62,089 nt of DNA, from NCBI GenBank assembly GCA_005885405.1, contig VAYN01000013.1, positions 1-62,089 on the forward strand, given 5' to 3'. Each line of letters opens with the position of its first letter. Positions within the stretch are counted from its first letter, which is position 1. The position numbers were made by a program, and so were the translations under genes. The notes under the pieces were generated by a model, which saw only the letters and a list, made by a program, of their open reading frames with translations, had not been told where the DNA came from and made no database searches. Positions 3,716 to 59,047 of the stretch are shown here, in pieces. The stretch comes from Actinomycetota bacterium. GTDB taxonomy: Bacteria > Actinomycetota > Thermoleophilia > Solirubrobacterales > 70-9.

Positions 3716-4810
3716 CTAGCGGACCTCGAACCCTTCGCCGGTAATCCTGCCGATGTCGTTCGAGAGGCCGAGGAAGAACAGCATCAGGACGAGGGCGATC
3801 CCGACCGCGGTCGCGCGCTCCATCACCCGCAGCGAGACCGGGCGGCCGCGGACTTTCTCGACCAGCGACCAGAAGATGTGGCCGCCGTCGAGCGGGAGGA
3901 TCGGCAGCAGGTTGACGAGGCCGAGCGAGAGGCTGACGAAGGCGAGGAGGAGCAGCGCCCGTTCGAGCCCCTTTTCGATCACCTGGTGGCCGACGTCGCT
4001 GATGCCGACGACGCCGGAGACCTGCTCCCGTTGTTCGGCTTCGAAGAGGTGGGTGAAGACGTGGACGGTCCCCTTCGCCACTTCCCAGATCGCGTCGCCG
4101 GCTTCCTTGGCGGCGGTGCCGGCGTCGATCGGGTGGTTGACGCTGCCGTAGGAGAACCCGACCAGGGCGCGCTTTGCTTCCTCGTCGTAGCGCGGGTAGA
4201 CCGTGAGCGCCTTGACCTGGCCGTCGCGGCGGACCTGCAACTGCACCGGCGTCTTCGCCACGCAGCCGTCCACCTGCTTGCCCTCGCACTTGTGGGAGGC
4301 GACGGTTTCGCCAAATTTCACCAGCCGCTCTTCGGTACTGAGACCCGCATAGAAGTGCCCATCGACGGCGACGATCTCATCGCCCGGCTGCAGGACCTTG
4401 GCGGCGGGGGTGCCGGTCCTGACAGCGCCGACGCTCTGTTGGATTTCCTCGCGCCCGTTGGCCCAGTAGACGCCGAAGAGAATGGCGAAGGCGAGGACGA
4501 TGTTCACCGCCGGTCCAGCCGCGACGACGACGATCCGTTTCCAGATGTCCTGCCGGTAGTAGGCGCGATCGGCGACCTCCGGAGGTACCTCCTCCTCCGG
4601 GTTCATCCCGGTGATTTTCACGTAGCCGCCAATCGGGATCGCTTTCACCCCGTACTCGGTCTCGCCGCGTTTGATCGACCAGATCGTCGGCCCGAAGAAG
4701 AGGAAGAAGCGCTCGACCCTCATCCCCGTCGCCTTGGCGGCGAAAAAGTGCCCCGCCTCGTGGAGGATGATCAGCAGGCAGAAGCCGATAAAGACCCAGA
4801 ACCAGCTCAT
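3716..4810 (-). CDS. rseP: Site-2 protease family intramembrane metalloprotease (RseP/Rip1-like)
   Basis: A 364-residue membrane zinc protease that cuts substrates within the membrane, for example anti-sigma factors. The zinc motif HEAGH is at residues 17-21 in the first membrane helix and the second metal motif LDGGH has D308. One PDZ domain lies between, about 115-210. The start overlaps the dxr stop as ATGA (4807-4810), so the two are translationally coupled. The pair is conserved with ispG in actinobacteria; Rip1 of Mycobacterium tuberculosis is the best known relative. The actual substrate here cannot be told from the sequence; the neighbourhood (cdsA, uppS) is envelope-related. Confidence 0.93.
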   Translation of the reverse strand: MSWFWVFIGFCLLIILHEAGHFFAAKATGMRVERFFLFFGPTIWSIKRGETEYGVKAIPIGGYVKITGMNPEEEVPPEVADRAYYRQDIWKRIVVVAAGPAVNIVLAFAILFGVYWANGREEIQQSVGAVRTGTPAAKVLQPGDEIVAVDGHFYAGLSTEERLVKFGETVASHKCEGKQVDGCVAKTPVQLQVRRDGQVKALTVYPRYDEEAKRALVGFSYGSVNHPIDAGTAAKEAGDAIWEVAKGTVHVFTHLFEAEQREQVSGVVGISDVGHQVIEKGLERALLLLAFVSLSLGLVNLLPILPLDGGHIFWSLVEKVRGRPVSLRVMERATAVGIALVLMLFFLGLSNDIGRITGEGFEVR

Positions 4811-44943: not shown

Positions 44944-45900
44944 TTATCTATCCATCCCGAGCAAGACCCAAAGGTCGGAGGCGATTGCCTCGGCTTCGTC
45001 GTCTAGTTGGTTCCAGGTGAGATGGGTGATCGTGTAGCCAGCGGCGGCGAGGCGTCGATCACGGGCCTTGTCTTCTCGGAAGGCGCTTTTGGTTCCGTGG
45101 GTCTGCCAGCCGTCGAGCTCGACGATCTGGTCGGTGCCCGGCCAATGGCAGTCAACCTCAAAATGTCTGCCGCCGGCTTCGACCAGGACGTTGAAGCGGG
45201 GTAGCGACAGGCGGTGCTCCCGGCAGAAGGGAGCGAAGCGTTCCTCGAGCGGATTCTTCTGCTCTCCCACCGGTTCGTCCTTCAGCCCTTCCAGGGCGGT
45301 GAGCACCTTGCGAATGCCTCTCCGGCCGGGATAGCGGTCAACCAGGTCCCAAAGGGAGAGTCGGTCCCAGAGTTCCTTGAATTCCATCTCACGCAAGAGC
45401 CGCTTCACCTCATCGAGCGGCTCGGTGGCAGCAAGGTCGAGGATGGTGCGCGGGACGGTGGTCACCGCGATCCTGTCTTTACTCGTTACCTCGTCGGGAG
45501 GCACTCGGGAGACGTGGCGGCGGATCAGCTTCGACGACCGAGTGGCATGCGGAACGGTGACGTCGATGGTCGTTCGCGAGGTAGGCCGGAGCCCCCAGAG
45601 TGCTGCCGCTGAGTAGTGGCTGAGGATGGCAGCAGGTCCAGAAGCGAGAACGGCAGCCATCCACCGTCCCTCCTTCTGGATCAATCGGTGACCGACGAGG
45701 TAGACGCCCGCGTGGAAGCGATGCAGCCGCCCGTTCGCGAGCCGCTTCTTGACCGCGCCTTCACTCCATCCCGCCTCCAGCAACTGCCACCGCCCCACGA
45801 TCCCGTGCTGTCGCTCAGCCAAATCCGCCAGCTCACGGTCGTCGTCGCGAGTCCGCGAAAACGGCTCTTGAGGGACCGTTTTTGCGGACTCGATGGGCAC
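44944..45900 (-). CDS. AbiEi-type winged-helix protein fused to a DUF559 nuclease-like domain
   Basis: A 318-residue protein. The N-terminal part (about 25-75) matches the AbiEi antitoxin winged helix (AGWSEGAVKKRLANGRLHRF); a middle AbiEi-like region follows, and the C-terminal 100 residues are DUF559, related to very-short-patch-repair nucleases, with FEVDCHWP, IVELDGWQTHG and a later Lys-rich helix. No AbiEii toxin gene is adjacent. The GTG start at 45900 lies just ahead of a palindromic repeat that codes residues 3-18. It may be a solitary defence or regulatory protein; function unknown. Confidence 0.8.
   Translation of the reverse strand: MPIESAKTVPQEPFSRTRDDDRELADLAERQHGIVGRWQLLEAGWSEGAVKKRLANGRLHRFHAGVYLVGHRLIQKEGRWMAAVLASGPAAILSHYSAAALWGLRPTSRTTIDVTVPHATRSSKLIRRHVSRVPPDEVTSKDRIAVTTVPRTILDLAATEPLDEVKRLLREMEFKELWDRLSLWDLVDRYPGRRGIRKVLTALEGLKDEPVGEQKNPLEERFAPFCREHRLSLPRFNVLVEAGGRHFEVDCHWPGTDQIVELDGWQTHGTKSAFREDKARDRRLAAAGYTITHLTWNQLDDEAEAIASDLWVLLGMDR
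45848..45892. repeat. Palindromic element, copy in the AbiEi-DUF559 gene
   Basis: A 45-bp element: 17-bp arms CGAGTCCGCGAAAACGG and its near complement (one mismatch) around an 11-nt loop. In gene sense it differs from the menC copy at two bases only. It is read in frame as the N-terminal peptide ESAKTVPQEPFSRTR. Confidence 0.92.
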
Positions 45901-57970: not shown

Positions 57971-59047
57971 GTGCGCCTCAGCTCGGTCGAGGTCATCCCC
58001 TACGCGCTCCCGTTCAAGGAGCCGTACGTGACCGCGCTCGGGTCGTTGACCCAGCGGGAGATGGTGCTGCTGCGAGTGCGGGACGAGGACGGGGTTGTGG
58101 GGCTGGGCGAAGCAGTGCCCTTGGCTTTGCGGGGCGGGGTTGGGCTGCGGGAGGTTGTGCGAGAGCTGGAGCGTTGGGGAGAGGATCGGGAGGTGGATGG
58201 GCTCTCGGCCCCAAGCCGATGCGCGGTGGGGACCGCCCTGATGGATTTGCGAGGCAGGCGGGTTGGGAAAAGGCTGGGTGAGGAGGCGAGGGACGAAGCG
58301 GTTGAGTGCAACGCGACGCTTGTCGCGGGACCGCCGGCGGAGGTGGCGGCCGAGGCGGAACGCTGGGCTCAGGCGGGGTTTACGACCTTCAAGCTGAAGC
58401 TCGGTTCCGAGTCCGCGAGAACGGTCCCTCAAGAGCCGTTTTCGCGGACTCGATGGGCGGGAGACGTGGAGCAGGTGCGGGCGGTGCGGGAGGCGCTGGG
58501 GCCGGAGGTGCGGATTCGGGTGGATGCGAACGAGGCTTGGGACCTGGAAACGGCGAAGACGACGCTGGCGGAGTTGGAGCCGTTCGGGATCGAGTTGGCG
58601 GAGCAGCCTGTAGCGGGGTTGGAGGCGATGGCGGAGCTCGCGGCGTTGACTTCGATTCCGTTGGCTGCTGACGAGAGCGTTGCGTCTCTCGCCGAGGCCG
58701 AGGAGGCCGCGGCGCTTGACGCCTGTTCCTACACCGGGATCAAGCTCTCCAAGGTCGGTGGGCCCGAGGCGGCGCTGGCGATCGCCGACGTTATCCCCAG
58801 CTATGTCACCAGCGCTCTCGACGGACCGGTGGGAATCGCGGCGGCGGCTCAGGTCGCGCTCAGCCTCGCCGAGACCACCCACCCCGAACGCCTGCACCTC
58901 GCTCATGGCCTTGCCACCCAGCGCCTTTTCGCCTCGACGATCGCCGCGGTCGAGTGCGAGGTCCGCGACGGAATGTTGCACCTCCCTCCCGGTCCTGGCC
59001 TCGGCATCGAGATAGACGAGGATGCCCTGCAAGCGCATCGCATCTAG
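57971..59047 (+). CDS. menC: o-Succinylbenzoate synthase with an in-frame palindromic insert
   Basis: An enolase-superfamily enzyme of 358 residues that dehydrates SHCHC to OSB. Catalytic Lys residues lie in TTFKLKLG, metal ligands in RVDANEAW, ELAEQP and AADESV, and the second acid/base Lys in GIKLSKVGG. Between KLKLGS and DVEQVRAVREAL about 18 residues are extra: they come from the 45-bp palindrome (58408-58452) and read SESARTVPQEPFSRTR. The site is a loop between a barrel strand and a helix, so the enzyme may still work. GTG start 12 nt after menA. Confidence 0.9.
   Translation: MRLSSVEVIPYALPFKEPYVTALGSLTQREMVLLRVRDEDGVVGLGEAVPLALRGGVGLREVVRELERWGEDREVDGLSAPSRCAVGTALMDLRGRRVGKRLGEEARDEAVECNATLVAGPPAEVAAEAERWAQAGFTTFKLKLGSESARTVPQEPFSRTRWAGDVEQVRAVREALGPEVRIRVDANEAWDLETAKTTLAELEPFGIELAEQPVAGLEAMAELAALTSIPLAADESVASLAEAEEAAALDACSYTGIKLSKVGGPEAALAIADVIPSYVTSALDGPVGIAAAAQVALSLAETTHPERLHLAHGLATQRLFASTIAAVECEVRDGMLHLPPGPGLGIEIDEDALQAHRI
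58408..58452. repeat. Palindromic element, copy inside menC
   Basis: A 45-bp element: arms CGAGTCCGCGAGAACGG and CCGTTTTCGCGGACTCG (one G-T pair) around loop TCCCTCAAGAG. Read in frame it adds a 15-residue peptide to MenC, 14 of 15 residues identical to the N-terminal peptide at 45848-45892. Confidence 0.93.

Follow-up and report, generated by a model that had tools for sequence, protein, structure and literature searches.

Four described systems come closest to the DNA site that we analyse here: Rickettsia palindromic elements, which are about 150 bp long (PMC10969869); REP palindromes with their RAYT genes, the latter evolving faster than the neighbouring genes (PMC2817692); the EDxHD homing endonuclease I-Bth0305I, which forms a dimer on its target, nearly 60 bp in length (PMC3943268); and AbiEi antitoxins, which repress their own genes by binding to inverted repeats (PMC7319586). 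The locus in question lies in the genome of a soil bacterium of the Solirubrobacterales (G000), on a 62,089-nt stretch of DNA that we analysed as a whole and refer to as the window. Here a 45-bp palindrome is found both inside menC and at the start of a gene encoding a protein with an AbiEi winged helix and a DUF559 nuclease domain (AbiEi-DUF559), and the in-frame copies of the palindrome, together with the match to the nearby nuclease gene, point to a mobile or self-copying DNA site of a kind that is little known.

The palindrome (CGAGTCC...GGACTCG) occupies positions 58,408–58,452 of the window, on the plus strand and in frame (ESARTVPQEPFSRTR; encoded peptide KLKLGSESARTVPQEPFSRTRWAGDVEQV) within menC (57,971–59,047, plus strand; o-succinylbenzoate synthase, MR_MLE family). 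Its 43-bp core, GAGTCCGCGAGAACGGTCCCTCAAGAGCCGTTTTCGCGGACTC, has one exact match in the window (58,409–58,451, plus strand) and one match with two mismatches (45,849–45,891, minus strand) at the start of the AbiEi-DUF559 gene, with no match in 100 shuffles. Since the outer C and G are found in 14 of the 14 tabulated copies, the natural unit is 45 bp, and the AbiEi-DUF559 copy accordingly spans 45,848–45,892 (minus strand, in frame, ESAKTVPQEPFSRTR), with two mismatches to the menC copy. Coordinates, alignment and translation bear out the preliminary description as to the position of the palindrome, the identity of the window's two copies at 43 of 45 bases, the in-frame placement in MenC between KLKLGS and DVEQV, and the use of the same frame and transcription sense in the AbiEi-DUF559 gene, where the copy translates as VPIESAKTVPQEPFSRTRDDD, counted from the GTG at 45,900. 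All three sense frames of the menC copy are open, as are two of its three antisense frames, and the shared frame is therefore weak evidence by itself. Two further suggestions had to be given up: rather than about 18 residues, the net insert in MenC is 16 residues (48 bp) as compared to relatives, and the GCCCAT and ATGGGC flanks do not point to a larger ancestor, as ATGGGC adjoins only the two window copies out of 14.

Comparison with relatives reveals the palindrome as extra DNA in two host genes, menC and a gene for an FAD/FeS oxidase. Among 18 aligned MenC proteins, drawn from 30 loci, the 16-residue insert just after the KxK motif is present only in the window's MenC and in that of G009, a sister genome of the same genus; the other 16 lack it, in keeping with the earlier expectation that such orthologues exist, and read KLKLG-xGD-DVGQV or similar. 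Motif reading of 20 of the 30 MenC loci gives the same split, two with the insert versus 18 without. In the enolase superfamily this is where a barrel strand ends and a helix is about to follow, and a poor single-sequence model of MenC (pLDDT 46) agrees locally with a strand end, predicting a strand at residues 139–144, coil, and a helix at 159–176 around the insert. In the oxidase the insert amounts to 18 residues as compared to the G003 protein. As judged by eye against the empty relatives, there is no clean target-site duplication in either menC or the oxidase (16 versus 18 codons net).

The genes for the oxidase and RecJ hold other palindromes too. The oxidase carries a second, unrelated in-frame palindrome of about 65 bp in both G000 (L057, contig C30, about 3850–3920) and G009 (L195, contig C13), and yet another, perfect palindrome lies near the same place in the G006 oxidase (L198). 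Different in-frame palindromes are also found in the C-terminal linker of RecJ in G010 (L210) and G002 (L216), scoring 13 each versus 6–11 in control windows and having no good match among the sampled AbiEi palindromes. By eye, RecJ palindromes had been called in six other species; rescoring upholds those of G010 and G002 only, with the other seven non-element linkers scoring 6–11, like their controls (5–10).

To census the family we used a pattern of both arms with up to three mismatches. Applied to 232 Solirubrobacterales genomes, which are draft assemblies and miss copies in unassembled parts, it matched nine times in G000, four times in G009 and once in G063, a member of the same taxonomic family; the remaining 229 genomes had no match, and neither did the reversed-pattern control, in G000 or across the order. 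In all three genomes that hold the family, one copy is located at the start of an AbiEi-DUF559 gene. G009 has two more copies, one in recJ and one in the FAD/FeS oxidase gene, which have drifted and so escaped the pattern. A narrow exact pattern had no matches in a named genome collection from which G000 is possibly absent, and a looser one found 21 loci there: two in Solirubrobacterales (G009 and G063) and 19 in a single Planctomycetota metagenome-assembled genome (JACOUH01; L067–L079, L081–L083 and L085–L087). The latter carry a larger palindrome, GTGGCCGGGGCT-GAGTCCGCGAAGCCCCGG-loop plus mirror image, and we set kinship with it aside, as the two have no more than the outer GAGTCCGCGAA in common and the 19 loci gave no AbiEi-DUF559 match with tblastn.

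Four of the nine G000 copies are read in one frame, with the peptide ESA(K/R)TxPxEPFSRTR: those in AbiEi-DUF559, menC, recJ (VESAKTAPGEPFSRTRD) and the gene for the FAD/FeS oxidase (1000 aa; TESAKTVPGEPFSRTRS). The remaining five are intergenic, as far as the ORFs listed show. The G009 copies in menC, recJ, the oxidase and AbiEi keep the frame seen in G000, and the copy in a G009 UvrD/PD-(D/E)XK gene uses a different one (SPQKPSIYDSSHGL). The AbiEi frame is found in all three insertions common to G000 and G009 (p 0.04) and in three of four once the UvrD-type copy is included (p 0.11), a rise that leaves the shared frame weak as proof. The predicted picture of tens of copies, many of them in frame, is thus only partly matched: the copies are dispersed and four are in frame, but they number nine. 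Likewise, an in-frame element across unrelated proteins describes four G000 genes well but does not fit one in-gene copy of G009, which is in another frame.

Two of the intergenic copies (L055 and L060) directly follow ORF stop codons. Three (L055, L056 and L058, on G000 contigs C11, C29 and C3) adjoin other palindromic units of roughly 150 bp, and a longer match between these three copies is due to these neighbouring units. At L060 (340–4033; G000 contig C7, about 71.6–75.3 kb) a block of 3.7 kb, which G009 lacks at the matching place, has its edge no more than 5 bp from the copy. No longer transposon with these ends was seen among the 20 half-site matches in G000, 18 of which pair as 43-bp units, the other two being single near-matches.

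The AbiEi-DUF559 gene of the window (44,944–45,900, minus strand) encodes a protein of 318 aa with a helix-turn-helix and a DUF559/Vsr-like nuclease, our candidate for the driver of the family. The AbiEi_4 winged-helix domain, the putative palindrome-binding part, covers residues 23–69 (45,694–45,834, minus strand) and scores 24.5 bits, just under the Pfam cut-off of 25; in another scan it scored 27.9 bits, above the cut-off. The DUF559/MTES_1575 nuclease region (residues ~217–313; 44,962–45,252, minus strand) has its nuclease residues intact, and E219, D250, E261, H268 and D277, as well as P234 and W253, are invariant in all 23 aligned homologues, of which 20 have AbiEi_4, 19 DUF559 and 17 MTES_1575. 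A profile search matched 3HRL (E 7.8e-5) and, weakly, the catalytic domain of I-Bth0305I (3R3P, E 0.087). With a poor two-sequence model (mean pLDDT 46), Foldseek returned 3r3p as the best PDB match (prob 1.00, E 2.8e-3) and 3hrl at rank 15, with no match below E 0.001; in this weak model the predicted fold resembles that of the homing endonuclease.

In both G009 and G063 the same gene stands at the same chromosomal place, adjoining leuA, with an in-frame start palindrome (MPAESARTDAYRQVSRTR and MPAESAKTLVEQGFSRTR, respectively). Between G000 and G009 the gene is 68% identical, as compared to 89–92% for long stretches on both sides. The four ORFs around it encode aconitase, a cupin/HTH protein, LeuA and an MFS protein, for a fifth ORF, which overlaps, Pfam gave no match, and no AbiEii toxin was found among the neighbouring ORFs scanned. 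Among the matches listed, AbiEi-DUF559 genes are present in 45 of the 50 genomes of the host's family, and among plasmids the search turned up one distant homologue. A second AbiEi paralogue of G009 (C3:55676, L099) has one in-frame TAG and an intact start palindrome. Within the open-licence PubMed Central literature we found neither AbiEi and DUF559 treated together nor a description of these palindromes.

Is the AbiEi-DUF559 copy just another host gene? A 100-base stretch around the domain start was scored for symmetric palindromes in 107 homologues from 30 genomes, among the matches listed (47 earlier loci or stretches and 60 added ones; one locus, L136, was dropped before scoring as it had no AbiEi match). 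A strong palindrome (score of at least 12) is present at the start of 64 of these 107 homologues, which come from 21 genomes and are not mutually independent, versus 4 of 106 upstream and 0 of 107 downstream control windows; the mean score is 13.0 at the start, 6.8 upstream, 6.2 downstream and 6.1 in shuffles. The start palindromes of the other homologues mostly have their own, different sequence. An in-frame ATG lies inside the palindrome in 44 of the 64, no more than 1 nt from its centre in 38 of these; for the rest, an in-frame ATG is found only upstream (10), only downstream (1) or not at all (9). Strong palindromes also occur at the 3' ends of 9 of 47 homologues, versus 0 of 47 within the gene, and these may be terminators. 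The AbiEi-DUF559 copy is therefore no ordinary in-gene copy: start palindromes are frequent in this nuclease family, and the dispersed copies track them.

This coupling extends to a second 43-bp family (CCGTCTGCA..TGCAGACGG), present in 4 of the 12 genomes of the genus. A G007 copy lies in frame in an FAD oxidase gene, in the frame used by the AbiEi gene of G007 (PSAVDRPIDGEMQTA and PSAFHRPIAGQMQTV), and matches the AbiEi palindrome of G007 itself. In G002, one copy (L189, second palindrome) is near-identical to the palindrome of the G002 AbiEi gene on contig C103, and the palindrome beside it finds its best match in G005. We compared 32 hand-picked non-AbiEi palindromes with 90 AbiEi palindromes (score of at least 8, out of 107), a set that excludes the units of 65 bp and of roughly 150 bp as well as a palindromic trace at L197. 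The best AbiEi match is in the palindrome's own genome for 17 of the 32, as compared to 2.4 expected, in a set that was partly found with AbiEi-derived patterns and drawn from related genomes that are not independent. The 15 misses are L065, L188, L192a, L192b (a tie), L189a, L178, L180, L182 and every palindrome from the RecJ linker (six) or the oxidase (one) of other species; four of the RecJ entries (L212, L213, L217 and L218) proved to have no clear palindromes on rescoring. One of the 17 matches is no independent copy, since L193 (G006 C80:67415) is a decayed AbiEi gene, retaining ~106 bp of upstream DNA plus the palindrome and, after an internal deletion of ~200 bp, 32 bp of the gene. 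A DUF1810 gene of G000 (L185, 1501–1974; C28:206847) has at its start a palindrome centred on ATG, of the type found with an AbiEi paralogue in the same genome.

Five sites are common to G000 and G009 (AbiEi, menC, RecJ, the oxidase and an intergenic site near an FHA gene), and this sharing shows the insertions themselves to be old and rare events. The orthologous copies differ at 12 (AbiEi), 14 (menC), 16 (RecJ), 9 (FHA intergenic) and 10 (oxidase) of 43 bases, i.e. no less than unrelated sites differ between the two genomes (9–16 versus 7–15); the DNA around menC is 85–87% identical. Within G000 the same five sites differ at 2–5 of 43 bases, and from these figures, set against the 9–16 between genomes, we conclude that the copies evolve in concert. 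All nine G000 copies differ from one another at 1–9 bases (1–7 without the one on C28); within G009, the GAGTCC-type copies, including the UvrD copy, differ at 4–10, overlapping the orthologous range of 9–16. The oxidase copy of G009 is of the GAGACC type, like the second AbiEi gene of that genome, from which it differs at 5 bases, versus 10 from its G000 orthologue and 7 from the G000 AbiEi copy. Symmetry is retained: in an alignment of 17 copies, paired changes fill 25 cells versus 10.8 in shuffles (0/500), and the signal is lost on sliding the partner. As related copies are no independent events, the paired changes demonstrate kept symmetry rather than a probability. The unpaired centre, too, is shared by copies within a genome: ATATG in the menC and RecJ copies of G009, TCAAG or TGGAG in G000.

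The simplest account that unites these findings, and the one that we prefer, though we give it no more than an even chance, holds that the 45-bp palindrome is the putative DNA target of the AbiEi-DUF559 protein, which would spread and homogenise it; the binding, cutting, conversion and insertion or copying involved are activities that we infer from sequence. The AbiEi-DUF559 gene itself starts with the proposed target. The winged-helix part would bind the palindrome as a dimer, and the protein probably represses its own gene, as suggested by the palindrome being centred on an in-frame ATG in many homologues. The nuclease part, of the Vsr/EDxHD type, would cut copies of the palindrome, and repair from another copy would overwrite the cut one, so that the copies within a genome stay alike and change along with the nuclease gene. 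New copies may arise elsewhere when the wrong breaks are repaired in this way. Of those that land in genes, only copies that preserve the frame and lie in a loop or linker that tolerates them would survive, which fits menC, recJ and the oxidase gene. Such a driver-and-site account would explain the coupling, the symmetry, the concerted change and the occasional new sites. Speaking against it are the 15 misses among the 32 palindromes, the overlap of the distances within G009 with the orthologous range, the age and rarity of insertion, the poor structural model and the fact that no clean target-site duplication was seen by eye.

Alternatively, the palindromes could be nothing but operators of an AbiEi-type repressor, with all sites changing together as the specificity of the protein changes. 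AbiEi proteins are indeed described, in the excerpted report, as binding inverted repeats at their own promoters (PMC7319586), the palindromes studied here often lie on an in-frame ATG, and the start of the G000 DUF1810 gene repeats the palindrome type of an AbiEi paralogue, central ATG included. While a pure regulon would account for the coupling, it does not explain extra DNA inside coding sequence: copies lie within menC, recJ, the oxidase gene and the UvrD-type gene of G009, and in menC and the oxidase gene the palindrome is an addition as compared to relatives. Moreover, a symmetric binding site would not need the unpaired centre to be shared within a genome. We therefore regard this explanation as rather unlikely.

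It is likewise improbable, in our view, that we are dealing with a MITE- or RPE-like element that owes its movement to replication at hairpins or to a transposase unrelated to it, and for which the AbiEi start is one preferred landing place. The recurrence of other palindromes at the same places (the 65-bp one in the G000 and G009 oxidases and another in that of G006, different ones in the RecJ linkers of G010 and G002) and the larger palindromic units beside three copies fit this explanation. A foreign transposase would, however, account for insertion and leave unexplained why palindromes in the AbiEi family are centred on ATG: strong start palindromes in 64 of 107 homologues, 38 of them centred on the ATG, are too regular for random landing. 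Nor does G000 show a longer element with these ends (18 of the 20 half-sites pair as 43-bp units), and no clean target-site duplication was apparent by eye. Finally, chance or a merely structural hairpin (a terminator or folding element) is most improbable, as, despite the two intergenic copies directly after stop codons (L055 and L060), there are nine near-identical copies versus no control matches, copies lie in frame within coding sequence, and no T run is found in the 8 bases on either side of 14 copies read outward.

Returning to the AbiEi-DUF559 protein as the candidate driver, we consider it possible, if somewhat doubtful, that it represents a driver-and-site system unlike the known ones, in which a genome often has several winged-helix nucleases of the EDxHD type, most of them with a start-codon palindrome of their own; these would spread and rewrite copies of that palindrome across the chromosome, so that core proteins such as MenC and RecJ would carry in-frame peptides changing in step with the site of the nuclease. 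We know of no mover so far for in-frame palindromes in proteins. Now that a family of such palindromes is linked to one particular nuclease gene, in concert with which it is rewritten, the question of the mover becomes one for a cut-and-bind assay. If true, the proposal would also give AbiEi-DUF559 genes a role.

How, then, does this family compare with the described systems? As the preliminary description proposed, it works like Rickettsia palindromic elements in being dispersed, in frame in unrelated proteins and absent from 16 of 18 MenC proteins; the link to a nuclease family was not foreseen. Compared by description, the two share in-frame palindromes in unrelated genes, a similar peptide and intergenic copies, but here the unit is 45 bp, it is linked to a nuclease gene, there are nine copies, and one in-gene copy is off-frame. 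With the AbiEi antitoxin of type IV toxin-antitoxin systems the driver gene shares the AbiEi_4 domain and the inverted repeat at its own start, and it differs in having a C-terminal nuclease domain and no AbiEii among the neighbouring ORFs scanned. The nuclease has a fold similar, in a weak model, to that of I-Bth0305I, with E219, D250, H268 and D277 in that order; unlike the homing endonuclease, it is joined to an AbiEi winged helix, its putative site is a palindrome at the start of its own gene, and there is no intron. REP hairpins reportedly carry a GTAG or CGTC tag at one foot. No such tag is common to the 14 palindrome copies, which share only the C and G, and L059 alone has CGTC directly at the foot. 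As in REP/RAYT (TnpA-REP), dispersed palindromes are tied to, and co-evolve with, a fast-evolving nuclease gene of the same genome. The RAYT protein is a Y1 tyrosine transposase encoded between two inverted REPs, whereas here the nuclease combines a winged helix with DUF559, a single palindrome lies on the start codon or N-terminus, and copies are found inside genes; if our proposal is true, this would be a second, unrelated case of a REP/RAYT-type partnership.
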